A stretch of DNA of 23,809 nt, taken from a virus. A model generated the notes under the pieces. That model was not told the origin of the DNA, did not search any database, and worked only from the letters and a program-made list of their open reading frames with translations. The DNA lies in IMG/VR virus record IMGVR_UViG_3300010389_000142, positions 1 to 23,809 of that record. One strand, given 5' to 3'. Shown here piece after piece: positions 1-20,575 of this stretch (positions within the stretch are counted from its first letter, which is position 1; each line of letters opens with the position of its first letter). A program made the position numbers and the translations under genes.

Positions 1-1326
1 CACGAATCCTTTCTTAAAACAGCAAAGAACCCTGTGAATGTAAGGAAGCTATTACAGTTAATTGGTGTTAAATTCAGAGGACCATCTTCATCTGCGGCAC
101 AGGCCGTAGCAACTGTTATAGGATCAGGTGGAGTTCCTTTAACCATACCAGTAGCGTCCAGGGTGTTTACAAAGAAATCACCTGAAGATGGTGAGATTGT
201 TAACTATACCTTATATCAAACAGATAACGGACAGATACTTGACATTGCGGCAACAAACGAAATAAACCTAGAGGTTGCCGATTCAGATTTAGGGACTGGG
301 CAAGCTTGGAGTAATCTTGTTCTAGTAGAAGGTGCTCTAGTTGAAGACTCAGGAACTTTTGCTGATACTGATGTTTTAAAATCAGTTTCTCTTAGTCGGG
401 GTCCTGTGATTGATGGTAGTGTTCAAGTATTTATTGATACTGGTGATTCTAATTCAGAACCTTATAGAGAGGTTGCGTCTTTATTATCAACATCTTCATC
501 CGATCAAGCCGCGTTTGAATTAATATATAACGGTGACTACACTGCTACTGTTCTGTTTGGAGATGGTGTTAGCGGTAAGATTCCTCCAACAGGGTCCACT
601 TATAGAATCTTGTACAGAGTTGGTGGAGGAACCAGAGGAAATGCAGCCACCTCTCAAGTTAGAGATACAATTGTATCAGATGAAGGGGCTTCGTTAACAG
701 TAGAAAATATACTTCCATTCACAGGAGGAAATGATGCTGAAACAATTGACCACGCTAGGAAGTATGCACAGTTAACCTTTAGACAGCAGGATCGTTATGT
801 CTCATTGGATGACTATACAACAGTAGGGAATACTTTTAAATCATCTACAGGAGCATCAGCTAAGGCTATAGCTGCTACTAGAAAAGCCTATAGCTCTGCT
901 AATGTCATTGATCTATATGTTGTGGAAGTTGCTTCTGACCTACAACTTCAAAAGGCTTCCATAGCCTTTAAGAGTGATTTGTTAAAACACATCTCTACAA
1001 AGAAAATGATTACAGATGAAGTTGTTGTAGTCGATGGTCTTATACGAACCATAGATCTTAATATGGAGGTTAGTTTAGATAGAAGATTTGAAAATAAAGA
1101 GGGATCATTGAAGGCTGCTATCTCACAAGTAATTCTAAACTACTTCAATGTCAACAACAGGGAGTTTGGTCAGGACTTTATACCAGAGCTTGTATCTAGA
1201 GAGGTGTTCCAGAAAATACCTGAGGTAAGACTTGCAAAGATATTAAACTACTCAGAGCCAGTAAGCCTTGAGTTTAATGAAATTCTACAGTTGAACAACT
1301 TTTACATAGGATTCAATTATGTCTAA
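1..1326 (+). CDS. 6: Baseplate wedge protein, gp6 / baseplate-J-like (5' partial)
   Basis: The reading frame is open from the first base, so this is the C-terminal 441 residues of a longer protein; the GTG at 34 is internal, not a start. T4 gp6 (about 660 aa) and P2 gpJ are related wedge subunits that form the ring around the baseplate hub. Visible family signatures are FGDGVSGKIPPTGS followed by YRVGGGTRGN (about nt 553-645), then FTGGNDAET with FRQQDRYVSLDDY (about nt 718-816). This is the usual baseplate-J order. The C-terminal part alternates beta strands and helices, as in gp6. The next gene begins inside the last codons of this one, and it is gp7-like, matching the 6-7 gene order of T4. 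Family assignment is confident. The missing N-terminus lies upstream of the window. Confidence 0.86.
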   Translation, partial: HESFLKTAKNPVNVRKLLQLIGVKFRGPSSSAAQAVATVIGSGGVPLTIPVASRVFTKKSPEDGEIVNYTLYQTDNGQILDIAATNEINLEVADSDLGTGQAWSNLVLVEGALVEDSGTFADTDVLKSVSLSRGPVIDGSVQVFIDTGDSNSEPYREVASLLSTSSSDQAAFELIYNGDYTATVLFGDGVSGKIPPTGSTYRILYRVGGGTRGNAATSQVRDTIVSDEGASLTVENILPFTGGNDAETIDHARKYAQLTFRQQDRYVSLDDYTTVGNTFKSSTGASAKAIAATRKAYSSANVIDLYVVEVASDLQLQKASIAFKSDLLKHISTKKMITDEVVVVDGLIRTIDLNMEVSLDRRFENKEGSLKAAISQVILNYFNVNNREFGQDFIPELVSREVFQKIPEVRLAKILNYSEPVSLEFNEILQLNNFYIGFNYV

Positions 1327-4300
1327 GTATTACAAAAGAAACTATGTCGATGTACTTCAAATCATAACCCCTGAGTATTACAAAGGGCTAGATAAAGTAA
1401 TAGCTCCAGAGAGTCTTGATATAGTAGATGAGATACTTAGATCAGATATAAAACTAATTGAAGAAGAGCTTTATTGTGATGTTATAAAATCTGAACCTAT
1501 AAAAACAATACTAGGATACAGCACAGCAACCTTATATGCCTCTGGTCTTCTGCCTTATTTTGTAAAGAAAAACAATCTAACAGATTTAACCCTAGAGGAA
1601 TTAGATCTAAATGTAATTCAAAGATTAGGGTATTCTATTGATGGTTATACAAAAGAAGAGTTTGCCACTTTCGTATCTGGAACACTCATACCAAAAATTA
1701 CAATAGGAGCTTTCGGAGCACCCTCAGATCTTTACGCTGCTACAAACGGTTTATTAGGATCGGACAACGAAGCTTCTCACCGATTCATGTTTGAAGAGCT
1801 AGGTCTTTTATACCTACTCACCTATGAGCGCACTGGAATAAACTTCAAACCTTATTTAGCTGAACTGTTTGTAAATAAGCTGTACGGAGGACAGAGACTA
1901 ACTTTAGTAGATGCCTTTAAGGCTATTAAGGAGGCACTATTTGATACTGGTAATGTTAATGTTTTAGCCAAGCTCCTACCCGATAGTTTTTCTGTGGATT
2001 CAGATGATACTTGGACTAGTGGAACACAGCAACTTGACAAGCTAAAAACCTGGGTTGATGTACTTTACTCGGTTGATTATGCTCAAGAGGATGATTCTTA
2101 TATAGAAAGTATTCTTTACGACTACTTTGAAAATAATATATCTCCTAATACTATTACACAGAACGGACCTCTGTTCAAACTTCAGAGAGCAATTGGATTC
2201 CTGATATCAGATATAAATGATCAGGTGCTTAGGCTAGATACTCTGAATTCAATATCCGATTGCCCAGATGAGTTTCTACCATATCTAGCTGACATTGTAG
2301 GGTGGAAGCTTTACACATCTAAACCAGATTCTTGGAGGAGACAGCTTTACAGTGCAATCAGTCTGTATCACCAGAAAGGAACAGCAGCAGGCTTAGAGAA
2401 CCTTATAAAGGTTGTTCTACCCTCATTTGATTTAGACTTCAGCGCAGCTTACAATGAGTTCCATGAATCATACATTCCCAACCTACTATATTATCTTTTA
2501 AAGACAGACTCTTTTATAACAAGTAGTCTAAGTGGTTGGACCTCTGATAAAGCTGTAGACTATACAGAGGGAGAAAGGGATCCACAGAATTTAGACACCT
2601 CTATACGCTACATTGTAGATCATTTGCTATTAAGATGCGTAGATCAGTTCCCACACTTATTCTCAGTAAGAGGATACCAATTCAATATCTATGACCCAGA
2701 GTTTGTATTCAATTACAGAGGAAGGGATTTCCCAATACCCCCATGGGAGGAGGAGAACTTCTACAAAGACTGTGCAGTTTCTGAAGACTTATTAGAGTAT
2801 CTTAGAGATGAGCTTATATGTTTAGGAGTCACTCAAGAATACGCGGATGATTTCTTTAACTATACCCTATCAAACACTGCTGACGGTAAGACAGATCCTA
2901 TATTTTATAACAACGGATTCCTGTTCTTAACATCAGGATTACAGCTTCCTCCTAACTATAGCTATCTAATTAATAACTACAAAAGAGAGAGCTTTGATTA
3001 CATTCCCATGTGGAACGGAAAGTCCTCTCATTTCAACTTAACTGTATCTTCAACAGCAATAGAGGATGAATTCTTTAATCCAGGCGCGTTTGATAGAAAA
3101 GACTTCTTTGATTCTTTGGAAGCCATACCGTCATTCACACCAGCAAAAGCAATATCAAGGGTACATGTTGATCTCCTACAAGGACAGCCTTTAATATCTT
3201 ATGTAAAGCTATCCCCTAGATTCAATGTTAAACTCACCTCTACGCCAGATGTCTCATCAACCTTAGCAGGATGGCATGTAAGTGGACTAGACATGCGTAC
3301 AGAAAAGGCTGGTCTTATTGGTAAGTTCAAATATGTAGGATATGGATTCGGTGGAGATGATGTTAGAGCTAGAAATAAAGCTCTACATGAGGTATATCCT
3401 ACATTTACAAGAGACAAAACCTATTTTGGAAATAAGTACAACTCAAAGACTGGATTATCCGATCTAAGCTCTTCTCCATTTACCTTGAGTGGAGACTATG
3501 TTTCTATAGAAGGAGGTAGGGGAACCAAGAGGAGAAAGGGATATCACAAGGTAATATCTGAAGGTGATTGGTTTGTAAGAGATGGATTTAATCCACCTTT
3601 ATGGCTGAACCTTGGAAGGTATACAGATGCATTTTCATCAATAGACTTTGGACCTTCAGGCTACCTGCCTCTGGGTTTAATCCCAAGCTCGTATCAGTAC
3701 CAGACCATAGAGGATACATTCAATCTCCCAGGCGTATATGAATACTGTGAAGACACAGGTTCTTCTTCAGTTTTCTTCGGTGTTCCCGTGTCTGGAACAT
3801 TTGAGACTAGAGGCGTCGATGATATTGAAATTATAAACGGCAATTACTATAAATTTAGAGATGATCTTGAGGACTTCCAAAAGATAGTATACGAGGTTAT
3901 ACAAAGAGAATTAGAAATGGAATCTATGAGGTTCGTAGAGAGGAATGAACATCTATTCAGATTCAACAAGTGGAAGAACTACCAGAAGATTATTGAGAAT
4001 GTCCTATGGAGTAGGATGGACTTCTCAAAAGATCAATACTACCAGTTCTTCTTAGACAAATATGAAAGAAGATCGGGTCTATTAGGAGGCTCTCTTAGAG
4101 GTATAAACTACCTGTATGAAAAAGACTACGCGGGCTCTGATAATATTGATATCTCTAGAGATACCTTGGACAATTTAGGAAATGGTGGAGGCACCATCCT
4201 GTCCAAGATTTATGGACCATTCTTGTACAATGGATTACTGAAAGTAGACGGAAGTGGTATCAATGGCAAGATAACTGATGTAGACTCTATTAGTTCTATA

Positions 4301-5722
4301 ACAATAAAGGGATCAGGAGGAGATTTAATAACAGCTTCTCAAGATAGCCAACTATACATAGGAGGTTATACTACTGAATATAGAGATCCTTATTACTTCT
4401 CAGGAGTTGAGTTAATCACTCATGATGAGGACAAGTCCAAGATGTATGTCTTTGATGTATCTGATGAAACCACCGTCATATCAGAAGACTCACTTCTTTT
4501 CAATAAGAACGCAACCTTCTTTAGTCTAAAATCCCAAGGGAATAGGATAAGGTATACATTCAATTACGGAGATGGAGATGTTAGCTTCGATCCAGAACAC
4601 GACTATTCTATCAATGTAAGTTCTCTATTCATGAACTTGAATAACCTACAGACTGGAGGTAAGGGCTACTCAGTATGGCTTCATACAGAGCCTGAGGTAG
4701 ACTATGAAGGAACCCTAGTATTCTGGAACTATTCCCCAAATAAAAAATGGACGAAGCATCTAGCATCCTCAGTCACAGGACCACAAGGTCGCCAGTATGT
4801 AAACGGATTAGTTCACAACATAGTGCATGATCCATCCTCTTTAACCAACGAGAACTTCTGCTTCGCTTCTGGTGATCAGAAAGGTCTTTTAAATGTATCT
4901 GTAAAAGATGTAGTGAAGGATACTATACCCTTCACAACTAAGAATAGAGGAATTTCTGTTGACCTTCCTTACTACAGATCTTTCCAACAGGTTCATAGAA
5001 AGAATCAGAAATATGTAATAGAAGTTCTACTTAATCAGGATATAGATTCAGAAGCTATCTTTGCCTTTGATGGAGTGTCTGTTATAGATGAAACTATTAG
5101 AGAGCGTGCTTTAATAGAGTACGACCTTTCCATAGATGATTATAAGCTAGAAGATATTGTCACCAACTTATTAGTAAGATACTTTGATGAAAGTGGCAAC
5201 TTAATAGAATTAGGAGAGGATATTTTAGTAGATCTTAGTGGAAATATGTTCTACAACGGTCAAAAGGTCACGGCAGCCATAGCGTTGTCGGACCAAACGA
5301 AGACACCAACTCCTAAGCCTAGGCTGTTTACCCAGGTGGAAGCTGTCCAAAAATCAATATACTATTCCAACGGAAACACTTCTCCAGACAATGTTTACGC
5401 GGGTATAATAAGACAGAATAGCTACTCAAATGATTACGCCATATCCTCTCTAGAGGTATACGGAAAGACTCGCGGTAGCTACATACAGTATAGGGAAAAA
5501 GTTAGAGAGCTTCTAAGCCCAGAGCAGTTCCTAGAAATACTTAGATTCTATAAGGAGCAATCGAACAATATAAAGAAGAGGGGCAACAACAGAATACAGA
5601 CGGACAATGGATATAGTGGTGGAAGTAGAATAAACTACAGACACATAGCTGAACAGACTAACTGGTCAGTAGCCTTAATCGCTGACGCAGCTAGATATGA
5701 CAAGATAGACTTATTAAACTGA
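1319..5722 (+). CDS. 7: Large baseplate wedge protein, gp7-like with P2 gpI-like segment
   Basis: This is a 1467-residue protein whose ATG overlaps the end of the gp6-like gene by 8 bases, with AGGA at 1308-1311 as ribosome site. Residues about 290-370 read as a phage tail protein I (P2 gpI) domain: a helical stretch, then LPYLADIVGWKL, SWRRQLY and YHQKGTAAGLENLI. T4 gp7, the partner of gp6 in the wedge core, is the accepted gpI counterpart, so position and motif agree. T4 gp7 is 1032 aa; this protein is over 400 residues longer. Residues about 1000-1250 look beta-rich, without an obvious family, and may be inserted domains exposed at the baseplate edge. The last 200 residues are charged and partly helical. 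The gene ends in TGA, which overlaps the next ATG (ATGA-type coupling). The wedge role is well supported; the function of the extra domains is not known. Confidence 0.75.
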   Translation: MSKYYKRNYVDVLQIITPEYYKGLDKVIAPESLDIVDEILRSDIKLIEEELYCDVIKSEPIKTILGYSTATLYASGLLPYFVKKNNLTDLTLEELDLNVIQRLGYSIDGYTKEEFATFVSGTLIPKITIGAFGAPSDLYAATNGLLGSDNEASHRFMFEELGLLYLLTYERTGINFKPYLAELFVNKLYGGQRLTLVDAFKAIKEALFDTGNVNVLAKLLPDSFSVDSDDTWTSGTQQLDKLKTWVDVLYSVDYAQEDDSYIESILYDYFENNISPNTITQNGPLFKLQRAIGFLISDINDQVLRLDTLNSISDCPDEFLPYLADIVGWKLYTSKPDSWRRQLYSAISLYHQKGTAAGLENLIKVVLPSFDLDFSAAYNEFHESYIPNLLYYLLKTDSFITSSLSGWTSDKAVDYTEGERDPQNLDTSIRYIVDHLLLRCVDQFPHLFSVRGYQFNIYDPEFVFNYRGRDFPIPPWEEENFYKDCAVSEDLLEYLRDELICLGVTQEYADDFFNYTLSNTADGKTDPIFYNNGFLFLTSGLQLPPNYSYLINNYKRESFDYIPMWNGKSSHFNLTVSSTAIEDEFFNPGAFDRKDFFDSLEAIPSFTPAKAISRVHVDLLQGQPLISYVKLSPRFNVKLTSTPDVSSTLAGWHVSGLDMRTEKAGLIGKFKYVGYGFGGDDVRARNKALHEVYPTFTRDKTYFGNKYNSKTGLSDLSSSPFTLSGDYVSIEGGRGTKRRKGYHKVISEGDWFVRDGFNPPLWLNLGRYTDAFSSIDFGPSGYLPLGLIPSSYQYQTIEDTFNLPGVYEYCEDTGSSSVFFGVPVSGTFETRGVDDIEIINGNYYKFRDDLEDFQKIVYEVIQRELEMESMRFVERNEHLFRFNKWKNYQKIIENVLWSRMDFSKDQYYQFFLDKYERRSGLLGGSLRGINYLYEKDYAGSDNIDISRDTLDNLGNGGGTILSKIYGPFLYNGLLKVDGSGINGKITDVDSISSITIKGSGGDLITASQDSQLYIGGYTTEYRDPYYFSGVELITHDEDKSKMYVFDVSDETTVISEDSLLFNKNATFFSLKSQGNRIRYTFNYGDGDVSFDPEHDYSINVSSLFMNLNNLQTGGKGYSVWLHTEPEVDYEGTLVFWNYSPNKKWTKHLASSVTGPQGRQYVNGLVHNIVHDPSSLTNENFCFASGDQKGLLNVSVKDVVKDTIPFTTKNRGISVDLPYYRSFQQVHRKNQKYVIEVLLNQDIDSEAIFAFDGVSVIDETIRERALIEYDLSIDDYKLEDIVTNLLVRYFDESGNLIELGEDILVDLSGNMFYNGQKVTAAIALSDQTKTPTPKPRLFTQVEAVQKSIYYSNGNTSPDNVYAGIIRQNSYSNDYAISSLEVYGKTRGSYIQYREKVRELLSPEQFLEILRFYKEQSNNIKKRGNNRIQTDNGYSGGSRINYRHIAEQTNWSVALIADAARYDKIDLLN

Positions 5723-7605
5723 TGAAAGGGACAGTCGAAGTATACAAAGTTTATGGTGACGGGAGCAGAGAATGTATCTGTTCTGAGTCCAACATGATTG
5801 TTGATGGTGCGGCAGAAAGCATTGTTCATTTTCTGACGATGCCTTCATCGGTCGCTATCATTGATAATGTTATACAGGAACGGGTCCTTGACGCATCAAA
5901 CTATATAATCCAGGGACTAGCCTTTGGAAAGGGTTCTTTGGGATATAAGAACAATGCTCACAAGTATAAGAAGCACAACCTTATTCCCAGTGCTGGGGAC
6001 CTATTAGCTATATTTCCATATTTAAATAGATATAATGTCACGGTGTCTTTATCACCTGAAAAGAACCCTTTCGATCTCTCTAGTGATGTATTTACTGTAT
6101 ATTCAAATGATAACAGTGCAGGGGGGCATTTCGATTTCTCAGGAAGAACCTTTGCAAACCCTGCCAACAATAAGATAACTTTCCCAAACTATCTTTCAGG
6201 TTCGTACAAGGCTCCTTACATATTCTCTGTAGATTTAAAAAGAAACTGGGAGTATCCTTCTCAACCTGTCGTTAGTGGTCAAGGGGCGGGCACTGGATTG
6301 ACGCAAATTGTTGTGGAGCATCATGGTGGGGTAGCTAGTGGTATACTTAGATGGAACCCTATCACTGGAGCAGCAACCACCTTATCTATTAGAAAAGATG
6401 AGCAGAATATTGCTATAAAAGAACTGGGGTCTGGGTGGTATAAAGTAGCTGTAGTATGTCCAAGTGGGAATGACATAACTAACTCAGGCATTAATGTAAG
6501 AATATACCCTGCTGGCTTGTCTTCATTAAACTCGTCCGTGTGGCAGACTGACGCCCTTGCCCCTGGCGTGGGACCTTCAGGAGGCGTTTTCCTATCAAGG
6601 CCAAGCTTAAACATAGGAAGTGTTCCAATTAATTACTTCTTAGGACAAGAGCCACATTTTATAGAAAGCTATGATCAACAAGCATTCCCATTATTATGTT
6701 CATCTATAGCAACTTATGATTTTGGAAGCACTGATGGTTTTGCACCTAGTGGTTTCTACATGCTGTCAGGTCCAGGGACATTGAGAACTAATGTCTCCTC
6801 CTACGATGCTTGCTGCTCATTACCAGCATCGCAGAACCCTTCAATGACTAGACTTGAGCCTGATACGGAGACTGATTACGAAAGCTCAACCGATCTAGAT
6901 TTAAATCTAGGCCATACTTTAAACTTCATGGGGTTCATAGGAAAGGATATAAATGTTTGGAAATATCTCCCAGATTGGACCGCCATGTCTGGCCTAACTT
7001 CAATGCCTTTACAAAGAGATTTGAGATGGTTAGGTGGCGGTGGAGGGGAGTATGCTTCTACCAACTTTTCTACTTATTACGCAGTGGTATCTGCTTTGGA
7101 TGCAGAAGCGTTTGCTAACCCAATACGAACAACAATAGAGAATGCCCTCACATCTTCAAATAGAAAACGCCAAATTGATCTGTCAGGATTCAGAAGAGCT
7201 AAGTATCAAGAACTAAATGAGGATGGAAACTCTACCGCTGTTGGAGCAACCCCTGGATATTTATCTGTATCTAGCTCAAATATAACTCTACACCCTAATC
7301 CTAAGATTACATATTTTGCATCAATAACTCCAGAGGATCTAAATGCATATAATATGTTTGGAGGAATACAGACTTTAGGCATGTATACCTTCGACTATCC
7401 AAAAATGTTATCAAACGGGCTATCACCATCAGCGGCTTTTGATAAGGATGTGGATACTGGAGATGAACCTGTGTACAAGCTGTTCTGTAGAAAAGTCTTG
7501 TCTGATAATATTGCAGCCGTAAGCGACACCTCCTCAGGTGCTACAGACTACGCTGGTATAGAGAACGCAACTAATGTAGATATAAAGTGGAGTCTTGAAT
7601 TCTAA
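5722..7605 (+). CDS. Fibre/baseplate-attached structural protein, adaptor module with inserted jelly-roll-like domain
   Basis: This 627-residue protein is the first of three neighbours sharing a module. Its N-terminus (MKGTVEVYKVYGDGSRE, then an SN-x3-DG stretch) aligns with the starts of the next two genes. The rest of the module appears only at its C-terminus: residues about 521-627 end in NVDIKWSLEF, matching LDIDWVIKL in the second gene and LVFLWTLQF in the third. About 430 residues are therefore inserted inside the module. The insert includes a probable carbohydrate-binding-type jelly-roll at about 123-303 (YIFSVDLKRN, GSGWYKVAVV, VFLSRPSLNIGS). It starts at the ATG overlapping the gp7-like stop, with no clear ribosome site, so translation is probably coupled. 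No database family is claimed. A tail-fibre or baseplate-decoration role is inferred from position and domain type. Confidence 0.6.
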   Translation: MKGTVEVYKVYGDGSRECICSESNMIVDGAAESIVHFLTMPSSVAIIDNVIQERVLDASNYIIQGLAFGKGSLGYKNNAHKYKKHNLIPSAGDLLAIFPYLNRYNVTVSLSPEKNPFDLSSDVFTVYSNDNSAGGHFDFSGRTFANPANNKITFPNYLSGSYKAPYIFSVDLKRNWEYPSQPVVSGQGAGTGLTQIVVEHHGGVASGILRWNPITGAATTLSIRKDEQNIAIKELGSGWYKVAVVCPSGNDITNSGINVRIYPAGLSSLNSSVWQTDALAPGVGPSGGVFLSRPSLNIGSVPINYFLGQEPHFIESYDQQAFPLLCSSIATYDFGSTDGFAPSGFYMLSGPGTLRTNVSSYDACCSLPASQNPSMTRLEPDTETDYESSTDLDLNLGHTLNFMGFIGKDINVWKYLPDWTAMSGLTSMPLQRDLRWLGGGGGEYASTNFSTYYAVVSALDAEAFANPIRTTIENALTSSNRKRQIDLSGFRRAKYQELNEDGNSTAVGATPGYLSVSSSNITLHPNPKITYFASITPEDLNAYNMFGGIQTLGMYTFDYPKMLSNGLSPSAAFDKDVDTGDEPVYKLFCRKVLSDNIAAVSDTSSGATDYAGIENATNVDIKWSLEF

Positions 7606-10133
7606 TGAAAGGAGAGGTCACAATAACAAAGGTTTATAAGGACGGGACTAAAGAGAAGGTCCTGTCTCAAGACTGTAATGTTCTTACGGATGGGTTTGGT
7701 ATAAATCTAACAAACCTATTTACCAGCAATCCAGCAGATGATATAGATAGGTTCAAGATTGGCTATTTTCAAGTAGGAACCTCGGGATACTATCAAGAAA
7801 CTCCAATACTGGGTGGATTACAAGAAGAGTTTGCGTATTCCTTACCACTGAATACACATAACAACTTTTATGAATTGTCATCTGCTCTAACTGATTCAAC
7901 ATCTTATGGAACTCAGGGAAACGTAAAGACTGTCGTTAGAGATGTCACTACAGTCACAAACCCTTTCTCTCCATCTGATGAGTTGGTTTACACAACTTCT
8001 TCTATGGTTCTAGCTGTCTTAGAAGATGATCCAACTACAAAGCTTACAGATAGGACAATTAATGTAAAGATAACCATTGATGAGGATTCTCTCAATGGAG
8101 TATCTATAAGAGAGTTTGGATTGTTCTCAAAGAATCCAACCAATAGACTTAAGGAAAGACCCGCTCTTGTAGCTTACAAATCTTTATCAACCCCAATAGA
8201 AAAGAATCAATATTTCAACTTGGATATTGATTGGGTAATAAAGCTTGATCCTTATCAATCAAATGTCGGAACAGATTATTACACTAACCAGGAAATAAAA
8301 AAGCTTGGTGAAATTGTAAAGTTCTATCCTTCAGTTCAGGCCGCTGGGATAAAGTTCTACTCTTATTCCATGAGTGCCTCAGATGCTACAAAAATAAATA
8401 CTTACGATGTCATTGTTGAAAGCTCTACCCCAACAACTAGAGACGGGTATTTATACTATAGTTTATCTGGTACAGCACTTTCTGGGTATCACTATGCAAT
8501 AGACCCAGGCGCGGCTTCCCCAATATTCTGGCCTAAAGGATCTCAGCAAACTGTGATTCAAGTATCTGCGTTATCCGCAGTAAGCTTCTCTGATCCATCA
8601 ACAAGGCTAGAAATTCATTTAGATGGGTTTACAGGAGGCAAGAGGGTTCCTAATCCTTTATTAGATCAAGCTCCTGATAAGTTCTATATCTTCTTTCAAG
8701 ATGATGGAACTCCTCCAACAGCAGCCCTTAGCCAGACAGGATCTGGACCTATAACAATAACGGCTACCTTGGATGCAAGCTCAAGAAGTGAGACTAGGAT
8801 CTACTTTGAGGCTTCTGGTAATGCTGCGTATGAAATTCGAGATGTGGGTCAGGCAGAAGTTCTTTCTACTGATAATCATTACATCACGGTTCGCGCTGGA
8901 CAGTATACAGGGTCACTAGACATAGCTGCTCCTGCGGGAGCATTAGTAGATGTATCTGCATTCAACCCACTATCAAGTGATACTGAGGTTAATATACTTG
9001 CCCACTCTAACGACTTCGGACCAGAAGAGCAGGTTCCAGTCAGCATAAAGATACAGGATCTTGTGGATAATTATGTATCCATAGGAACTCCTGATAGTCC
9101 ATGGTATCTTGAAAACATAGGAGCCACTGGTAAGATTTATTGGCCTGGGTATCCTACTCAGAAAACTCATTCGGGGAACGATACCTTCTCCAACGGTCCA
9201 ACTCAGTTCATGTATCTTAATACCGAGCATCTAGATGATATCAAAGCTCCTGATAAGATCCAACCAGCCACACTAGCATATGCCCCGTCATCTATTTACA
9301 TCTGGGCTCACAAGCCTACAGATTTAGATCCTGTAAACTCTGTCCCTAAAATTAGAAAGTCTTATACTTCTTATTCCTTTGATTCCTTAGGAAGAACAAT
9401 AAATCTTCCTGATCAAAGACAGCCTTACAGTTCTGATACTTCCACATTGATACTATCAATGTATGTTAAAAAGATAGATACACCGATACAGACTACACAT
9501 CCTAATTACTCAGAGCCAGAAGAAATTACTAACAGCGAGTACATTGCAATTAGATTCTATACCAGAGGATTCCTCGGAGTGGGCAATACCATAGCCCCAG
9601 GAACCTCTGTATATACTGCTACTGTTATTTTTAGATGGGTTGGTGATTATCTAGAACCGTATACCTCAGACCTTAGGGGTGCTTTTAATGGTCAGCCCCA
9701 TGAATACGGAGTATTCAGCGGAACTGCTGATGATATAACAGAGTTTGGGGTTAGCGATAGGTGGGCAGGTACAGACGGATGGCAGAGGATATTCTTCGCT
9801 ATAGAGGTCCCTCCTGAGCTTACAGACGCGGCTGCTGCAATAGACCTTACACTAGACGGGTCTGGAGCTACTCAGCAGTGGTTCATAAACCCCACGATTA
9901 CCCATGACGGAAAGCTCCCAGGGTTCACAGGCACCTTTACAGCGCCCACTACATTGTCAGGAAGTCTAATAGCATGGGCTCAATTAGAGGATATTAAAGA
10001 CAGTGTGCCTTCTACATATAATGGATTTTTACCAGCAGAATATCAGCCAAGGGACACAGCTTACTTCAGTCCTTTAGGTGGAGCCTATATATCGTCCACA
10101 TCCTCAGAACAAATATTGAATCTTACATTCTAG
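7605..10133 (+). CDS. Fibre/baseplate-attached protein, adaptor module plus Calx-beta-like and jelly-roll-like domains
   Basis: This is an 842-residue protein. Residues 1 to about 215 form the complete shared module: MKGEVTITKVYKDGTKE, NVLTDGFG, FKIGYFQVGTSG, SIREFGLFSKNP and LDIDWVIKL each have a counterpart in the 192-residue gene downstream. The following 630 residues are a composite extension. Residues about 245-364 resemble a Calx-beta repeat (YYSLSGTALSGYHYAI, closing with FYIFFQDD). A second, weaker copy spans about 375-485 (RIYFEASGNAAYEI, closing with SIKIQD). Residues about 495-780 look like a jelly-roll carbohydrate-binding fold (LILSMYVKK, DGWQRIFFAIEVP, QQWFINPTI). The start codon overlaps the previous TAA; GGAG at 7589-7592 is distant, so coupling is likely. 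It ends in TAG, the only TAG stop here. A virion fibre with surface-binding domains is the best reading; the fold names come from pattern recognition only. Confidence 0.6.
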   Translation: MKGEVTITKVYKDGTKEKVLSQDCNVLTDGFGINLTNLFTSNPADDIDRFKIGYFQVGTSGYYQETPILGGLQEEFAYSLPLNTHNNFYELSSALTDSTSYGTQGNVKTVVRDVTTVTNPFSPSDELVYTTSSMVLAVLEDDPTTKLTDRTINVKITIDEDSLNGVSIREFGLFSKNPTNRLKERPALVAYKSLSTPIEKNQYFNLDIDWVIKLDPYQSNVGTDYYTNQEIKKLGEIVKFYPSVQAAGIKFYSYSMSASDATKINTYDVIVESSTPTTRDGYLYYSLSGTALSGYHYAIDPGAASPIFWPKGSQQTVIQVSALSAVSFSDPSTRLEIHLDGFTGGKRVPNPLLDQAPDKFYIFFQDDGTPPTAALSQTGSGPITITATLDASSRSETRIYFEASGNAAYEIRDVGQAEVLSTDNHYITVRAGQYTGSLDIAAPAGALVDVSAFNPLSSDTEVNILAHSNDFGPEEQVPVSIKIQDLVDNYVSIGTPDSPWYLENIGATGKIYWPGYPTQKTHSGNDTFSNGPTQFMYLNTEHLDDIKAPDKIQPATLAYAPSSIYIWAHKPTDLDPVNSVPKIRKSYTSYSFDSLGRTINLPDQRQPYSSDTSTLILSMYVKKIDTPIQTTHPNYSEPEEITNSEYIAIRFYTRGFLGVGNTIAPGTSVYTATVIFRWVGDYLEPYTSDLRGAFNGQPHEYGVFSGTADDITEFGVSDRWAGTDGWQRIFFAIEVPPELTDAAAAIDLTLDGSGATQQWFINPTITHDGKLPGFTGTFTAPTTLSGSLIAWAQLEDIKDSVPSTYNGFLPAEYQPRDTAYFSPLGGAYISSTSSEQILNLTF

Positions 10134-10158
10134 TATAATAAATATAAGAGGTATTGTT
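10134..10158 (+). promoter_or_regulatory. Short spacer with TATAATAA motif and ribosome site
   Basis: This 25-base gap is one of few non-coding stretches in the tail block. It holds TATAATAAATATAAG (10134-10148) and AAGAGG (10146-10151), 7 bases before the ATG at 10159. The first eight bases, TATAATAA, recur in the spacer upstream of the scaffold gene at 23178-23185. It resembles both a sigma70 -10 box and the T4 late element TATAAATA. No -35 element can be argued because upstream sequence is coding. It is a candidate late promoter only. Confidence 0.35.
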
Positions 10159-10737
10159 ATGAAAACAGACAAGTTCACTCCAACTGGACACATTGAAATA
10201 TGGAAAGTGTACCCTGATGGTACACAGGAACTGCATTGGAGTGATCACAATGTAATTACCTCTGGCATGGGTCTAGGTCTAACCTATTTATACTCTGCCT
10301 CAGGTAGCAACAGCATCGTTGATTATCAAATAGTTAACTTTCAGGTTGGGGTTTCTGGAGATCTAAACGACTACGGTGCATCCTCCTATAAGCTACAAGA
10401 GCCCCTTGGAGGATTAGCTCCTTATGGAACTAAGAGCAATATATTTGAAGAGAGCTTACAGCCTATTCAAAATGGAGCATTAGCCACAGCAGAAACATTT
10501 GCAAGAATACCTTTCTCGAACATACATAAAGTAAGTAAGACTGCGGTTAGATACACTTTAGTTCTAGATCAGAACAGCGCGAACAATGATCTTGAGCTAA
10601 ACGAAGTGGGGTTATTCATGAGAAATCCTACTGGATCCGCCTCGGTCAATCCAATCCTAGTAGCTTACAGACCTTTTGAAGGTATCAAAAAAACAGAGTT
10701 TTTCACCTTAGTATTCCTTTGGACTTTACAATTCTAA
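10159..10737 (+). CDS. Stand-alone adaptor-module protein (third paralogue)
   Basis: This 192-residue protein consists of almost nothing but the module shared with the two preceding genes. Residues about 9-26 (TGHIEIWKVYPDGTQELH) match their N-termini. HNVITSGMG, YQIVNFQVGVSG, ELNEVGLFMRNP, NPILVAYRP and LVFLWTLQF match the downstream parts of the 842-residue neighbour in the same order. It has about eight extra N-terminal residues, a strong ribosome site (AAGAGG, 7 bases upstream) and its own promoter-like spacer, unlike its two coupled paralogues. With no extra binding domain it may be a connector or a plug on the baseplate; this is inference. The gene ends one base before the next start codon. 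Recognition as a paralogue is confident; its biochemical role is unknown. Confidence 0.65.
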   Translation: MKTDKFTPTGHIEIWKVYPDGTQELHWSDHNVITSGMGLGLTYLYSASGSNSIVDYQIVNFQVGVSGDLNDYGASSYKLQEPLGGLAPYGTKSNIFEESLQPIQNGALATAETFARIPFSNIHKVSKTAVRYTLVLDQNSANNDLELNEVGLFMRNPTGSASVNPILVAYRPFEGIKKTEFFTLVFLWTLQF

Positions 10738-10738
10738 A

Positions 10739-13700
10739 ATGGCTTTTCAACCAAACGACATATACACAGTAAGCGGCGGGGCTAACTTATTTAATTATTG
10801 GAACCCCTTCGTAATAAAGTTTGATTCTTCTTCCTTCTATACTTGGGAAGAGGATAACTTACCACTATACGACTTGGATGAAAGGACTGAGTATCTTTGG
10901 GAGAAACTAGGATGGCCCACTTCATCAGTCCCAGGGCTCGCGCTAACAGTATCCTCAACTATAGATAAGAGTCTTGAGTTGAGCACTAACATGTTCACAA
11001 GCGTTCAGGACGCCATAGATGCTCTTCCTGAGGTCATCAGGTTCCCCACCTTGATAGAGATCGCAGCCTCTGGAGATCTGGGAGAGATACATTTAGACGG
11101 CATACGGTGTGACCAAAATGGATCCCTTGAGATTGTAAACAGGGTATTTGGAGAGCTATCAGGAACTAATGATAGATTCAATTCTACTGATACTTACGGT
11201 GTAGCTAGGTCAGTTTTAACAAACGACTCTCTTAACTATGATTTTAACAACACTAGTGCATTAGGATTGAGTGCTAATGTTTCGAGTCTTTGGCAGGATA
11301 ACTGGGACAGCATGTGGTTTGGAATAAACTACAACCAAGATAAAACACTTCCAAACTATCTAAATTTAGGTTTAGGCAATAAGAGTTCAGACACCTTTAA
11401 TAGGATAAGTGCGTCTCAAGCTTCAATTAGTGTTCCAGATGTAAAGGCACCTACCTCCAATGCTTTAGATGATACCATTGATTACTCGGGTATAAGAAAC
11501 ACGGGGGCACTTCTTACAGATGAGGATTATGCTAGATTAGGTATAGCTACTGATGATAAGATCGTGGGATCATGGACAGGAAACTACGCCAGAAAGGTAA
11601 AGGTTTCTAACTGCGATGGTCCAATTTACATCAGGGGAATCCATGTAAACTCTGCCTCTGGGGCTTCTGTTCCATTTACACACATACATGAAATAGGTTT
11701 TGAAGTAGACTCTACCAAGGGTCTTGTCATAGAAAACTGTGGTGTAGCTAGAGCTTCAAGGGTTGGGCTTAGTGTAGCAAACTCTAAAGTTATAATGAGA
11801 AGAAGGTTCTTCGCCGCCAGAAACTATGACAGTGCAGCTAGAGGAACTCTTGAGGATGTAGGTGTCCTTGCTACCAACTCAAAACTAATTTTTGAGACTG
11901 ACGATCATACCAATGGTTCTGATTCAGTGTTCAATGTTGGACACCAGAAAATAGGAATCAAGCTTGTAGGATCAGAGATACTAAATGAGGGCACCGCTGA
12001 TTCAAGCCAGGGAGATCCTTGCATACTAGGTGTTTACGCTTGTGAGGAAGGTATCTCTGCAAAGCAATCTACAGTTTCATTTAACGGGCTAGTAGATGTT
12101 TACAACTGTGGTGTTGGTTTTAAGTTTAATGAGTCCACCTTGGAATCAGATTCAATTATAGCCAACGCTTGTAGCCATGCTGGTTTAGAACTTAACAATT
12201 CTAAGTTCCTTTATAACAAAAATCTAATCAAACCTACAGCTTATCCTCAACTTAGTAATAGCTATCACTTAAGCAAGTCCTTGTTCTTAGGAAATGGGCA
12301 GTCTATAAAAGCTAAGAGTTCTGTAATAGAATCTGTTGATGCTTCGTCTGACCTTCCTTACAAGCATGGAGAGTTTGCTTCTATAGAAACTCACGGGCAG
12401 ATACTTGACGGAGGTTCTTTACCAGCTATAGAGCTTAAAAATACCTTTGCTGATATTATCCATCTATACTCTTATTCTGAGCAGCAGCCTGATGCTGCAA
12501 GCAGAGGTTTACACATCTCACTTGAACATTCTAACTTGAACTTAAGAGGATCTGAGGTTCATGCTACGATTATTTCAAATAGAGGAGCTAAGTCTGGATC
12601 CAACATCCATGTAAACAATAACTCTACTCTAAACATTGCTGGTGCTACTCATATTTCACAGTCCGACTTTGGAATATTTGCTAATAATAACTCCGTAGTA
12701 AACTTTAGACCACAGTTTGAGAAAGATATTGATACTTATTCACTTAGTTCTTGGAACCTTTCGTCCACAGGAAACCACACTAACATTGAAGTTCATGGAC
12801 TAAAAGGTTGCGTAGCTGCTAATAATAACTCTGTTATTGATATTAAAAACCTAGGAGATTTCGCAACTTCTTACGAGAATTCCGACGAAGAGGTTGGTTT
12901 ATTATTCTCTGACGCAGAGGCAGACATCATCTATAACAACGCTACAAGTGGAGGAAGCTTTGCATTCTATCCATTTACATTAAATGATGCTTCTGCTGCT
13001 CTGGATTGGATGGACTATAAAGGAGAGCTTCACCCAAGCTCGTCGCCTTCACTCAAGAAGTTTAGTAATTCTGTAATAGGTCAGTGTAAATATAACTACC
13101 TCATACATGACCTAACGAACCCTGATGTTTATGAATTTAGAAAATTCTCTAATGGGGGAATGTGTGTTAGGGCATACGGAAACAGCACAGTTAATGCACA
13201 GAATGTTAACTTTGTGACAGGCCCTGTTAACGCTGATGATGTCTTCCTAGATCCTAACCTTAATGTTGCTGGAGGATGCAACGACCTTAGAATATGGTCC
13301 TTTGGTGGTGGCTCTACTCTCAATGCATCCTATCTCAGCGTAAGCGGGGTGTACCCAGTATCTGCTGGCTATCACGGTCCTAGATCCGTGTACTTTGATT
13401 CAAGCTCTACAGACCCTTCTACAGTCGCTTGTAGTGCTTTCATACATGCTCCTTATTGGCAAGGAAGACAGTTTGAAACAAACAGACAACAATACTCTAT
13501 GAGGGCTCAATTAATACCTTGGGCAGAATATAATCTTCAAGATGGTGTTGAGAGCAACGAAGCTGTAAGTGCGTTGAGTGGAGTACCAGGGTTCTGGAAT
13601 ATTTTAACTCTCAGCAGTGTAGCTACTCTAGATCAGTTTGGACTTGGAGTTTCTTCTGTGTCTTCTGTAGGATTCCCCAATGTTCTAAGAAGTGTTTCAA

Positions 13701-14296
13701 TATCCTCCGCAGATGTAGAGCATTATAGAAGAAGATCTAAAGCTCAATGGGGTCCGAATGAGCCTTATGGATTTGGACCTAGCTCTTACGAAAACTGGGG
13801 TCCTTACAGATTGTTCCTTGAGATTGATGGAGCAGCCTTGGGTTTAAAATATCTAGATTTATCAAGTGCCACTCATGCGGTTCATGATGATTACGATACG
13901 ATTCCTTATCAAACACTAGCACAAGGTTATTTCCTTTCTGGCTCATGTTCTGCTACAGCGTCTGCCGTGGATTTATACTTCAATAAGCTATACACGACAG
14001 AGTATGCACCTTACACTGAGGTATCAGGAACAGATGTTTTCGCGGTGTCAGGATACTATCATCCAAATATTTTTATAAGACCTTCGGCATATAATATATT
14101 GTTAGATGAGTCTGCATCAAATACATTTGCTAATGCTAAACATTGTAATATGCCTCACTTAGATAGACCGTCTCTAGTTAATATTTATAGATCTACTAGC
14201 ACTGGGACGGGTGCTGGTCTTGGATCCACTACGCAACCAGGGTTCGGCCAAGGATTCTTAGGCGTAGCTAATTTTGATATAGATAGAGATATATGA
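10739..14296 (+). CDS. Tail spike/fibre-like protein with parallel beta-helix
   Basis: This is a 1185-residue protein. The N-terminal 60 residues carry FYTWEEDNLPLYDLDE (33-48), which matches the N-terminus of the next gene and probably anchors the protein to the virion. From about residue 300 to 860 a ladder of short repeats appears, in which a polar turn ending in Ser precedes hydrophobic-x-hydrophobic strands: ANSKVIM, TNSKLIF, KQSTVSF, NNSTLNI, NNSVVNF, NNSVIDI, GNSTVNA, GGSTLNA. This pattern is typical of right-handed parallel beta-helices such as phage tailspikes and pectate-lyase-fold proteins. Residues about 880-1185 are not helix-like and may form a C-terminal trimerisation or receptor-binding tip. 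No catalytic residues can be identified, so glycan cleavage cannot be claimed. The start lies one base after the previous stop. Confidence 0.65.
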   Translation: MAFQPNDIYTVSGGANLFNYWNPFVIKFDSSSFYTWEEDNLPLYDLDERTEYLWEKLGWPTSSVPGLALTVSSTIDKSLELSTNMFTSVQDAIDALPEVIRFPTLIEIAASGDLGEIHLDGIRCDQNGSLEIVNRVFGELSGTNDRFNSTDTYGVARSVLTNDSLNYDFNNTSALGLSANVSSLWQDNWDSMWFGINYNQDKTLPNYLNLGLGNKSSDTFNRISASQASISVPDVKAPTSNALDDTIDYSGIRNTGALLTDEDYARLGIATDDKIVGSWTGNYARKVKVSNCDGPIYIRGIHVNSASGASVPFTHIHEIGFEVDSTKGLVIENCGVARASRVGLSVANSKVIMRRRFFAARNYDSAARGTLEDVGVLATNSKLIFETDDHTNGSDSVFNVGHQKIGIKLVGSEILNEGTADSSQGDPCILGVYACEEGISAKQSTVSFNGLVDVYNCGVGFKFNESTLESDSIIANACSHAGLELNNSKFLYNKNLIKPTAYPQLSNSYHLSKSLFLGNGQSIKAKSSVIESVDASSDLPYKHGEFASIETHGQILDGGSLPAIELKNTFADIIHLYSYSEQQPDAASRGLHISLEHSNLNLRGSEVHATIISNRGAKSGSNIHVNNNSTLNIAGATHISQSDFGIFANNNSVVNFRPQFEKDIDTYSLSSWNLSSTGNHTNIEVHGLKGCVAANNNSVIDIKNLGDFATSYENSDEEVGLLFSDAEADIIYNNATSGGSFAFYPFTLNDASAALDWMDYKGELHPSSSPSLKKFSNSVIGQCKYNYLIHDLTNPDVYEFRKFSNGGMCVRAYGNSTVNAQNVNFVTGPVNADDVFLDPNLNVAGGCNDLRIWSFGGGSTLNASYLSVSGVYPVSAGYHGPRSVYFDSSSTDPSTVACSAFIHAPYWQGRQFETNRQQYSMRAQLIPWAEYNLQDGVESNEAVSALSGVPGFWNILTLSSVATLDQFGLGVSSVSSVGFPNVLRSVSISSADVEHYRRRSKAQWGPNEPYGFGPSSYENWGPYRLFLEIDGAALGLKYLDLSSATHAVHDDYDTIPYQTLAQGYFLSGSCSATASAVDLYFNKLYTTEYAPYTEVSGTDVFAVSGYYHPNIFIRPSAYNILLDESASNTFANAKHCNMPHLDRPSLVNIYRSTSTGTGAGLGSTTQPGFGQGFLGVANFDIDRDI

Positions 14297-14308
14297 TAAG
14301 GTGACACT

Positions 14309-16801
14309 ATGGCCGATTTACCTGATAACTTAATTAACAGCGCCTCTGAGCAATACATAGAAAGTTCTTATAGATTTACACAGCCTGTAAGATACTTCAA
14401 AAGCAACGACCCTTATTACTGGGAAGTTGATAACATTCCAATCAAGCAGTTAGAGGAGAATATCCTATTCCTAAAGGATCAAATATCTAACAATTTAAGT
14501 ATATCAGGTATTGGTCGTAAAGATCTAGCAGAGCTAAGACCTTTCTGCACAGGCTCTGACCGTATTGTTTATGTTAATCCTGGAAGGTATACTGCTAGAA
14601 TCAACGATGCATACAGAAAAGGTATCAATAGATTCAATGAGATACAGGCTCTTGATTATGTATCGACAGGCGGTGAAGGGTTTGATTCGATTGCGAAGAG
14701 AAGAAACACCGCTTTTGAATTATCCGTAGATGTCTTAAAGCAGATTGCTGGTGAGGTCGTGACTCCAGCACTATTGGATAATGGATTATTTCATTTCCTT
14801 CAGCATCACAACTCAGAGGCTTTAACTGGAAACTCATTTAAATACTCATTCTTAAAGGACTCTGAGATAAACCCAGGGACGGGTATAGATGCTCTTCCAA
14901 AAATTAAGATGGCTGTTTGGAGAGCTTACAGTCCTGATTTTGGAACAGAAACTTTTAGAAGTGACCTTCAACAAGAGTCCGTAGAGTTTACTAGACATTG
15001 GGGAGGAGCAGTTAGAACTTCAGTTGTTAATGTTCCAGACACTTTATCAATTGATATACCTGAGTTTGATGAAACTGCATTTGCAAACACTACAACTAGC
15101 CAACCAACCACAAGAATAGACCTCCTATTCATATATTCACATCCTATGGATGCTTCTTCTACATCCATAGTTAAACCTAATGGTCAGGTTCCTACAACGA
15201 TTACAGCGCCACAGTTAGGTATTCTAGAGGGCGCTGGTGTCATAGCACTGAACGAGGGCCGAGGATTATTTGAATCCTTTACTCCTAACGAATCAGGATT
15301 CTTTGAAGGAATATCTTATAGCCAAGGTTCATCGGTAGCTTCTAATTACTTCGAGTCTTCTGATTCAATAGGTGCTAACGGGAATCATAGAACCGTAGGG
15401 ACTTTGGCGGATCAGTTTCAGAGTAATGTAGGTATTGATGGTGAGTACGCCTCGCTACCTTCTCCAGACGATCTTCTAAACCTAACTCCTCTTTTCGAGC
15501 AGACTCTCTCGGAAAACAGTCTAGCTCTAGTAGGACAATCTATACTTCCCATAGCTTATATCGTTGTTGAAAGAGGAAAGGCTAATATCGAACAAGCAAA
15601 TCTATTTGATATAAGACCTTTCTTTAGAACCACAGAGCTTTCATATAATGAAAGAGCAGGTATAGCTGCTGCTAACCCACCATTATCTTTTGCAAACCCT
15701 GCTGTTGGAAAAAAAGAAGTTCAGAAGTCCATACTTGAAGTTAGAGATCACTTACAAGCACAGTTAAACAATCCACAACTGATAAGTTCTCCAATTGCTG
15801 CTGGAACTATTTGGGGAGGAACCAAGTGGGGTCCAGAAGGCCCAATACTTCATTATATCAAAGGGGCTGAGGGAGGAGCTATTGACGCTAACTCTGCTGC
15901 CGTGGCGGAAGCCTTAAGACAATACGGACACGGAAATAGCAGGTTGCTAGAAGCTCCTGTATACCCAGGATGGGATATAAATACAGCATATTTTTCCAAT
16001 GAAGCAGGAAAATATAGAAACGATAGATTATTTTCATTCATCAAATATGGTCAATATAGCAACCCACAAGGACTCAGCGGAAGGTATCTTCAAGAAAATA
16101 GTCTTGAAAACGACTGGTTTGAGTTGATAAACGACTACCCTGACCAGCCTGGACGCCCAGGGGGTGAAATTGAACGACTGTATCAAAGCGGAAAACAACA
16201 ACTTATGTCTAACTCGGCATTATTTACTAAAAAATACATAGAAATTAATCCACAACTTCTTGAAGGGTATGATGATTACGAGGTTAACCTTAGATTGATA
16301 GGTTGCACATTAAGGACTGGTCAAGTTGGTGGAGATGGAGGTGGAGCTTCAGATAACTTACAGTCTACAGGAAACACAGGTATTTTATATGAAAAACATG
16401 GAAGATCTGGGTTTACAATTTATGTATGTGTAGGCCCGAGTCTTCCTAATCAAGGTGGACTCTATTTCTGTAAGCCTGATTCTCCAAACCTTAACTACCA
16501 GTGGACTGGTATAATTAAGAATCACGAATGGTGGTTAAGGGAGTCTGGTCACTTCTCACTGGTCAGAGTTATAAATAAATACATTATAGAGGACGGGCCA
16601 ACTGATAGAGGCACAAGTAAAGAAAGTTCAACCGTCAACAACTCACTTAGAAATACAACACGACATGGAGATAGTTTTCAGCCCGTAGCAGTCACTTACC
16701 CTACAGTATCTTTTGAGGTTGTTGGTTATAAATCATCGACTGGCTTTAAAAACTACTACAGCACAGAGGCCACTCAAAACTCTCCTGCATCTATTCTGTG
16801 A
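14309..16801 (+). CDS. Structural protein sharing the YWE-DN-P N-terminal module
   Basis: This is an 830-residue protein with ribosome site AAGGTG at 14298-14303, five bases before the ATG. Residues 36-50 (YYWEVDNIPIKQLEE) match the N-terminus of the preceding beta-helix protein, followed by a helical stretch (NILFLKDQI). The middle contains a regularly built segment, RIDLLFIYSHPMD near residue 270, then LPIAYIVVERGKANIEQ and FFRTTELSYNERAGIAAA (about 410-460), whose family I cannot name. A Gly-rich loop (GGDGGGASDN) near 670-680 precedes a beta-rich C-terminal domain. It is clearly coding, has no signal peptide, and lies among virion genes. Because it shares an attachment motif with its neighbour, it may occupy an equivalent site on the baseplate; that is inference. 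Its TGA is separated by six bases from the next start. Confidence 0.5.
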   Translation: MADLPDNLINSASEQYIESSYRFTQPVRYFKSNDPYYWEVDNIPIKQLEENILFLKDQISNNLSISGIGRKDLAELRPFCTGSDRIVYVNPGRYTARINDAYRKGINRFNEIQALDYVSTGGEGFDSIAKRRNTAFELSVDVLKQIAGEVVTPALLDNGLFHFLQHHNSEALTGNSFKYSFLKDSEINPGTGIDALPKIKMAVWRAYSPDFGTETFRSDLQQESVEFTRHWGGAVRTSVVNVPDTLSIDIPEFDETAFANTTTSQPTTRIDLLFIYSHPMDASSTSIVKPNGQVPTTITAPQLGILEGAGVIALNEGRGLFESFTPNESGFFEGISYSQGSSVASNYFESSDSIGANGNHRTVGTLADQFQSNVGIDGEYASLPSPDDLLNLTPLFEQTLSENSLALVGQSILPIAYIVVERGKANIEQANLFDIRPFFRTTELSYNERAGIAAANPPLSFANPAVGKKEVQKSILEVRDHLQAQLNNPQLISSPIAAGTIWGGTKWGPEGPILHYIKGAEGGAIDANSAAVAEALRQYGHGNSRLLEAPVYPGWDINTAYFSNEAGKYRNDRLFSFIKYGQYSNPQGLSGRYLQENSLENDWFELINDYPDQPGRPGGEIERLYQSGKQQLMSNSALFTKKYIEINPQLLEGYDDYEVNLRLIGCTLRTGQVGGDGGGASDNLQSTGNTGILYEKHGRSGFTIYVCVGPSLPNQGGLYFCKPDSPNLNYQWTGIIKNHEWWLRESGHFSLVRVINKYIIEDGPTDRGTSKESSTVNNSLRNTTRHGDSFQPVAVTYPTVSFEVVGYKSSTGFKNYYSTEATQNSPASIL

Positions 16802-19800: not shown

Positions 19801-20575
19801 TATGAACCATGAAGATACTTTCTTAGATCATTTAGAAAGGCGAGGTAGGCTTAAGGCTGTTTACAAAGATCTTAGCCTGGATGCCTTTGCATACGCAGAC
19901 GAGTATCCTGTGACACCTAGAAGAATACCTTGGTACATCGTAATAATACCTACGGACAGAAATGCTCTAATGTCGTCTACAGGAAAGTCTAGACTCATAG
20001 ATTATCACACAAGAGTAATAAACTATCAGGTAAGCCCAGTCACATCTAGGTATAAGCAGAACTGGAACCCTGTCCTGTTAGATGAGGAGCCTGGAGAATA
20101 CCTTGTAGATACTCGAACTGACAGATCTTTCTACGATTCTTATACATTCAAGTTCAATCCAGATAAACTCAAGTCTGAGATTCAACAATATAAGAGAGGA
20201 TACGAACCTCTACCAAGAAGACCTCCTTCCAGCAGAGCTTTGTTTACAGCCATTAGAGAATCTATTGAAGCTGGAGATGAGTTTGTAGAGAGGAATAGCA
20301 AGACTATATCTTGGGGCTCTGTATACAAGAGAATGTCTAAGAAAGATAAGAAATCTATAGCTCTAGTAGAATCACTTAACTTCTCAAACTTAAGAACAAA
20401 ACTTCTTGAAGGAAAGATAAGTAGAAATGATACGATAAACTCTGAACTAGGTAAGGTAGTCGAGTCTGGAAAACTAAATATTACAAATATAGCTGATTTC
20501 GATCCAAAGGTTGTGGCTGCTAAGAAGCTACAAGTAGATCCAAAAGCTATAGCAACACCAGAATTAATAGAATAA
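16808..20575 (+). CDS. Cysteine-rich multidomain virion protein, unknown family
   Basis: This is a 1255-residue protein with three visibly different parts. Residues 1-300 contain 26 cysteines, after a Gly/Pro/Asp-rich linker (about 17-50). Three pairs keep the same C-x4-C spacing with aromatic residues between (C53-TYYY-C58, C200-QVRY-C205, C251-NYWE-C256), and a looser one is C112/C121, suggesting repeated small knotted domains. Residues about 301-610 look like two Ig-like beta-sandwiches. Residues about 619-1255 are long, charged and mostly helical, with few cysteines, quite unlike the first half. No signal peptide is present. The ATG used follows the previous stop by six bases without a good ribosome site. 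The following PAAR-like gene overlaps its stop codon. A host-binding or baseplate-linked role is plausible from context; no family is recognised. Confidence 0.5.
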   Translation: MGTFFSCVLKSGKLITGPGPDPGGDTDPGGGCDDPTSGEVCDDDEDDPCSETCTYYYCDYTYDVALAGTDDIASTSYDVTGVVDPNSPGGCTAECPPIDPATGGTPVVPTTCHIEVPYYFCRPPVPLCSQGNGCRGELVLISAPTADDAPDTVVIAGVTGYKNSGSCVAASNGCCSLNPTPPVIGPPPDFPGDVFSSNSCQVRYCQNGVIKSALLSQQYLGGACASDGGTTVDGITYYPPLFDLEDICGKCNYWECGTDGNCTEKEDIYTNEPVANPCPGSPTLEECQQSNADCCDDVGSPNSIDEVLANAYGAFNIPANDTTGNIDISFCPGIDNITYVPVANTLFNLTGPDFNGTIQGIGGATLNDSTGAISIPINSLSPGMNAATITFTRQCGNQESGSFVVLIDSSDINFCSDYDSCLDSVGQDCGFSPSEPVHDIQVIQLQPITGPNSQPIQFTSEGGYSNGLYLNPDVFNSPVGALNWEICDYLGGSFDGSSTIDVAAVDINGQPTRILDVSFNLDGPASFSITAKYPISPNGSRWRLELANTSLTFNSGAVPYYVGTLVITDTDTTNPIKTSPMFLTLEGDIFTPISTIYPKLIDCGSTTEPLPGPSIGQATYEFAANNLANRGGSREVLASGKANAKLEYLDNLLRRRNSETVFDPILSNKRYRTKSIVPFIPHQGPNPNSRLFSRIFDYRIELIRQYYLSNEDEDDYSQFLFSDLTLTNISRSLTKEARRKINSLKNIDGSPLAPRILAKIRDLIITDTVRDFELSELDLFKTETTNPEPVRTASSSLKTNKKVLDVFNSSYSLHVPDYEGSTKERIRHWKTIASDLRKQIAILETEGTIETTRVSDEDLVDVVLSDGTMSAIPITDFDTYPILQSNGVLTEYPLDTQAHRSKVLNFEDLTRLFKDLNETYSIRLEVSSGAPARIEEQANLEDERSEKYVLKLEPDTFVDLDRTNPLIRLTECQYSLMTDDEEIEEWIATKPYPFYNFYMNHEDTFLDHLERRGRLKAVYKDLSLDAFAYADEYPVTPRRIPWYIVIIPTDRNALMSSTGKSRLIDYHTRVINYQVSPVTSRYKQNWNPVLLDEEPGEYLVDTRTDRSFYDSYTFKFNPDKLKSEIQQYKRGYEPLPRRPPSSRALFTAIRESIEAGDEFVERNSKTISWGSVYKRMSKKDKKSIALVESLNFSNLRTKLLEGKISRNDTINSELGKVVESGKLNITNIADFDPKVVAAKKLQVDPKAIATPELIE

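Follow-up and report, generated by a model that had tools for sequence, protein, structure and literature searches.

Three consecutive genes of a tailed phage, encoding the proteins P1, P2 and P3, are supported as paralogues which arose by tandem duplication. We regard it as likely that they are ancient duplicates serving as adaptors between the baseplate and the attachment apparatus, docked on a wedge of J/gpI-like proteins and carrying exchangeable cargo. The basis of this reading is the homology, gene order, conservation, insertion and cargo variation seen in sequences or in predicted models.

Gene layout and homology of the three proteins

The window, i.e. the whole 23.8-kb stretch of an IMG/VR virus record that was analysed, contains baseplate genes and a T4-type prohead protease, which mark it as part of the genome of a tailed phage with kinship to the T4-like viruses. 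A nucleotide search revealed no match to isolated phages, tblastn with P1 and P2 found none among phages, and the close relatives are all metagenomic. A J/gp6-like baseplate wedge protein (34..1326, + strand; phrog_219, 5e-23; phrog_6, 3e-11; Baseplate_J, 7e-4, below the Pfam cut-off) is followed by a 1467-aa gpI/gp7-like baseplate protein (1319..5722, +) with a Tail_P2_I domain (PF09684, 2.7e-6, above cut-off), which is the presumed partner of the modules discussed here. Next come the three adjacent ORFs singled out by the original prediction and recovered at 5722..7605 (P1, 627 aa), 7605..10133 (P2, 842 aa) and 10159..10737 (P3, 192 aa), all on the + strand; by ORF coordinates the P1 gene overlaps its gpI/gp7-like neighbour by 1 nt. 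Two large proteins, a 1255-aa protein, a 105-aa protein and the prohead protease are also encoded.

Directly after P3 lies an 1185-aa gene (10739..14296, +), whose product is a probable attachment protein and bears the N-terminal tag FYxWExDNLPL; the 830-aa gene behind it (14309..16801, +) has this tag as well, in the form NDPYYWEVDNIPIKQL. The tag profiles of the two match in hhalign at 93.6% (E 2e-7; shuffled controls ≤2.5%), and the common pattern (FYxWExDNLPLxxLxE / DPYYWEVDNIPIxQLxE) is kept across relatives. This second tag is unrelated to the adaptor module and represents a further tandem anchor set adjoining the first. The 105-aa protein (20575-20892) resembles a PAAR-type spike tip by eye; its PHROG tail-fibre match is weak (0.22) and a Pfam search gave no match. 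The best relatives of the prohead protease (22212-23150) are mostly cyanophage gp21 proteins, and its S77 domain is followed by a calcium-loop-like stretch, DKNKNGKLDSQDF, with EF-hand matches below cut-off.

The original prediction had claimed paralogy from direct sequence comparison, and BLASTP of P2 with P3, P1 with P3 and P1 with P2, together with family profiles, bears this out. Apart from its first nine residues, P3 aligns throughout with residues 3-214 of P2 (29% identity, E 8e-19), P3 being the module alone, as had been proposed. The P2 module (residues 1-214; 7605..8246, +) is followed by a 628-aa C-terminal extension for which no family match was found. The PHROG family phrog_5417 recognises both P2 (3.5e-5) and P3 (0.005). 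The C-terminal signature W-[STV]-[IL]-x-[FL] that had been described is present, but in P2 it occupies residues 210-214, where the module ends, and not the C terminus of the protein. With P1, BLASTP aligns only the first 46 residues to P3 (9e-7) and only the first 40 to P2 (3e-5).

Profile-profile comparison, carried out in hhalign with families of ~70 slot-1, 36 slot-2 and 67 slot-3 sequences (the slots being the positions held by P1, P2 and P3, respectively), supports similarity among all three. The slot-2 and slot-3 profiles (S2 and S3) match at 100% (E 7e-54). The profile of the N-terminal module half of slot 1 (S1N) matches S3 at 96.8% (E 2.6e-10) and S2 at 97.7%, and that of the C-terminal half (S1C) matches S3 at 76.9% (E 2.1e-5) and S2 at 56.8% (E 1e-4). 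The controls were flat: ten column-shuffled profiles and one reversed profile per pair all gave ≤1.6%, and profiles of unrelated downstream genes scored ≤0.7% against the modules. In P1 the two halves correspond to residues 1-75 (5722..5946, +) and ~510-627 (7249..7602, +), the latter with WSLEF at its end; at 77% the support for the C-terminal half as part of the module is moderate.

The AlphaFold models of P3 (pLDDT 92.8) and P1 (pLDDT 82.5) were compared by the order and length of their elements, without superposition, and on this footing the predicted order in P3 agrees with that of the two P1 ends, namely strand, strand, helix, strand, and five strands past the insertion. The N-terminal end of P1 is modelled with strands at 2-10 and 16-24, a helix at 30-39 and a strand at 63-69, and the C-terminal end with strands at 514-519, 528-535, 551-557, 585-592 and 618-626. 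One might hold that only P2 and P3 are paralogous and that the likeness of P1 reflects chance or a convergent beta-strand pattern, a view to which the 46 residues detected by BLASTP lend themselves; since two independent halves of P1 match in the right order against flat controls, and the predicted elements of P3 and the P1 ends agree, we find it scarcely credible.

Short slot-1 relatives (338-427 aa) possess both module halves together with an insert common to all slot-1 proteins, equivalent to residues ~360-509 of the window protein (6799..7248, +; coverage 0.31-1.0 in the short relatives), and their coverage is near zero over most of P1 residues 91-345. The best PDB matches to the P1 model in Foldseek are the Pa193 baseplate/tail-fibre entry 9B45, an exo-agarase, and CBM4 and CBM22 modules. 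The model suggests that residues ~96-315 of the P1 insert (6007..6666, +; limits taken from the predicted strands, not from the Foldseek alignment) contain a CBM4/CBM22-like jelly roll. Since this piece adds to the insert common to the slot-1 relatives, P1 of the window looks doubly decorated. The idea that two of the copies grew by gaining surface-binding domains agrees with the CBM4/CBM22-like insert of P1 and with the slot-2 sulfatases of relatives (see below). In P1 the module is interrupted, not extended.

Gene order and duplication history

Searches of IMG/VR produced 92 non-redundant viral loci, throughout which the gene order slot 1, slot 2, slot 3 is invariant. Three module genes occur in 36 of the 92, and another 29 have a slot-1/slot-3 pair with nothing between, so that slot 2 is not essential; the remainder are mostly cut at contig ends. 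The module genes overlap or almost touch, and lie directly downstream of the J- and gpI/gp7-like baseplate genes. Slot 1 has a split module (338-2132 aa), slot 2 is optional (206-1523 aa, with bare copies of 206-272 aa), and slot 3 is bare (190-231 aa) and comes last in 67/67 cases. Of the three proteins, P3 varies least among close relatives (57-77% vs 26-45%).

Several members of the set are unusual in size or build. Giant slot-1 proteins are encoded at L041:3571-9969 (2132 aa), L052:5209-9990 (1593 aa) and L045:5490-10001 (1503 aa); the largest proteins of this slot (1145-2132 aa) had no Pfam match at all, and tblastn with a short slot-1 relative from L137 found no match among phages. The 567-aa slot-2 protein at L023:8244-9947 has a module that is itself split (P2N matches at 7-116 and 462-561) in the manner of a slot-1 insertion. 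A search of genome contigs gave 84 pattern matches and 0 confirmed relatives; the alignment of all 78 module sequences was too diverse for scanning.

In a tree of the module core, slot 2 forms a clade (34/36, support 0.98), as does slot 1 (65/65, support 0.998, a value that may be inflated, the slot-1 alignment consisting of two joined fragments with slot-specific columns); slot 3 is the remaining group. Single-copy bare modules of other viruses fall between slot 1 and slots 2+3. Since the slots form clades, the duplication is old. The slot-2 exceptions come from L124 and L129, where the second gene is nested in slot 3 and has 52-56% identity to its neighbour; judged from these sequences, it stems from a tandem duplication of slot 3 that took place separately and later. 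Loss is the simplest explanation for the absence of slot 2 from 29 loci, given that slot 2 branches off ahead of the diversification of slot 3, a branching order with modest internal support (0.69-0.85).

The tandem duplication that had been proposed is thus supported by the profiles, by gene order in ~65 multi-gene loci, by the tree and by the later event in L124/L129. It has been weighed against domain shuffling, by which the module would have been copied into unrelated genes with no tandem gene duplication. Two of the three proteins do have unrelated extra domains, the P1 middle and the P2 extension being dissimilar (no relation, 4.2%), but adjacency and fixed order in the ~65 loci, the existence of bare slot-2 copies and the plain tandem duplicate of slot 3 have already largely refuted this explanation, which we rate as very improbable.

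Related modules in other viruses

Only one family, phrog_5417, recognises the module in nearly all of its members (77/78 in the module alignment, best 5.8e-10), and PHROG annotates it as of unknown function. Of the P1-type proteins 3/61 match (best 0.059), and P1 therefore joins the family through slots 2 and 3, not directly. Searches of the module against Pfam and NCBIfam found nothing; a lipocalin (E 0.28) and a glutamate receptor (E 0.48) returned by a sequence search of the PDB were rejected as chance matches.

Modules of the phrog_5417 type are present in Campylobacter phage CP8 (117420-117980; 4.6e-59), Pseudomonas phage Peetri (Peetri_00118; 2.4e-16), halovirus HGTV-1 (gp28; 9e-11) and Vibrio phage D69 (gene 16; 3e-12). 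In all four the module lies directly downstream of the gene that follows a J/gp6-like gene; for CP8, D69 and Peetri, gene order alone identifies that preceding gene as gpI-like. In Peetri the module gene is also directly upstream of a gene annotated as tail fiber protein. These viruses have the module and its place after J/gpI-like genes in common with the window, but in the records searched each has one bare copy, and no split or cargo-bearing tandem copies were seen.

When the P3 model was compared with the PDB using Foldseek, a 953-residue HFTV1 tail chain alone was significant among the best 50 matches (E 7e-4, prob 1.0); this is the size of the baseplate hub gp44 (PDB 9H4P). The phrog_5417 profile matches HFTV1 gp44 at residues 404-507 and in a second stretch just after, so that two independent methods link the module with a baseplate protein of solved structure. 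The two consecutive phrog_5417-like stretches (L163:24234-24791) suggest that the hub may hold an internal repeat of the module. According to the HFTV1 study, gp44 is a virion baseplate protein and the tail fibres join the hub at its N terminus (PMC12494034). The module match is mid-protein (residues ~404-589); because the fibres sit at the N terminus, the match supports a baseplate location for the module and not fibre holding by it. A further difference is that HFTV1, a siphovirus, has the module embedded in its trimeric 954-aa hub, whereas the window has separate genes.

The BFVD matches of P3 in Foldseek include proteins annotated as tail-collar fibre (prob 1.0, E 1e-3 to 1e-2, TMq 0.38-0.47); the tail-collar family PF12571/DUF3751 had no Pfam match up to E 1 in the 78 module members. 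The gpH protein of phage P2, whose N terminus is of the tail-collar fibre type, holds the same place after J and I as the modules do. The P3 fold was also found by Foldseek in uncharacterised proteins (B2CRN3, E 6e-9; Q914H2; A7WKQ9) of filamentous archaeal viruses, lipothrixviruses among them, which are not tailed phages; literature on lipothrixvirus end proteins yielded nothing bearing on the module.

By analogy, gp10, gp11 and gp12 of T4 may be seen as a precedent in kind. They are products of consecutive genes, have a primordial fold in common into which big loops are inserted, lie at the baseplate periphery and became specialised as subdomains were gained or lost (PMC3004832). Both sets comprise consecutive paralogues with insertions, and the window set may likewise lie at the baseplate periphery; the T4 kinship was recognised from structures, whereas that of the window proteins is detectable by sequence profile. 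None of the 50 top-ranked PDB matches of the P3 model is a T4 chain, and by this model the fold of the module appears to differ from that of gp10, gp11 and gp12.

Slot-2 cargo and the proposed adaptor function

Behind the module, slot-2 proteins of three relatives carry a Pfam sulfatase domain: L112:11158-15705 (5e-29), L113:10138-14709 (2e-27) and L110:11905-14775 (7e-26). The domains look intact in sequence, with the formylglycine signatures (CxPxR) CSPTRANILTG, CTPTRANILTG and CTPTRATLLTGK, respectively, and, in L112 and L113, the GKWH signature. The L110 sulfatase region had no match in 50,697 isolated-phage records, and literature on phage tail sulfatases offered nothing bearing on these proteins, no tail sulfatase activity being found reported. 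Past the module, the slot-2 proteins at L144:11125-13248, L122:6418-8556 and L147:11023-12816 match alpha/beta-hydrolases weakly, short of the Pfam cut-offs, and are putative hydrolases.

A role as baseplate adaptors, which we infer as the original prediction did, is strengthened by the constant place of the module genes after J/gpI-like genes and by the match to the HFTV1 hub. The same place directly after these genes, and the fact that the homologous region of HFTV1 belongs to a hub protein, would also suit a module that is a structural wedge or hub subunit, its insertions or extensions being architectural (cf. T4 gp8 and gp10) and not receptor-binding or enzymatic cargo. We consider this unlikely, as slots 1 and 2 vary several-fold in length while slot 3 is constant, and sulfatase and CBM-like folds are not typical architecture.

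Under the adaptor model that we favour, the module, a ~190-residue beta-rich domain of the phrog_5417 family, would lie at the baseplate periphery, and each copy would dock through it onto the J/gpI-like wedge and present something outward. Slot 3 is bare and would act as a pure adaptor, or as the socket into which the product of the next fibre or spike gene fits. The domain that slot 1 would present interrupts a loop of the module; the common insert is always there, and in the window a CBM-like jelly roll as well. Slot 2 is optional, and its C-terminal cargo is exchangeable, being a sulfatase or putative hydrolase in relatives. Slots 1 and 2 would present glycan-binding or glycan-processing domains, for use on host surface glycans. 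A more ambitious version is offered tentatively: a three-socket attachment platform derived from one ancestral adaptor, with a fixed 1-2-3 order, in which slot 2 exchanges enzymes that modify surfaces, among them a virion-borne sulfatase that is active. If this is true, the slot-2 sulfatase would desulfate surface polysaccharides at adsorption.

The adaptor model provides a testable functional assignment for phrog_5417, a PHROG family with members in tailed viruses of both bacteria and archaea. It also makes a duplicate-then-decorate route visible in sequence, the T4 counterpart of which was recognised from structures. Slot 2 is a place to seek new virion-borne enzymes acting on cell-surface polysaccharides, and the set as a whole looks like conserved sockets for the changing cell-surface tools of this phage group.
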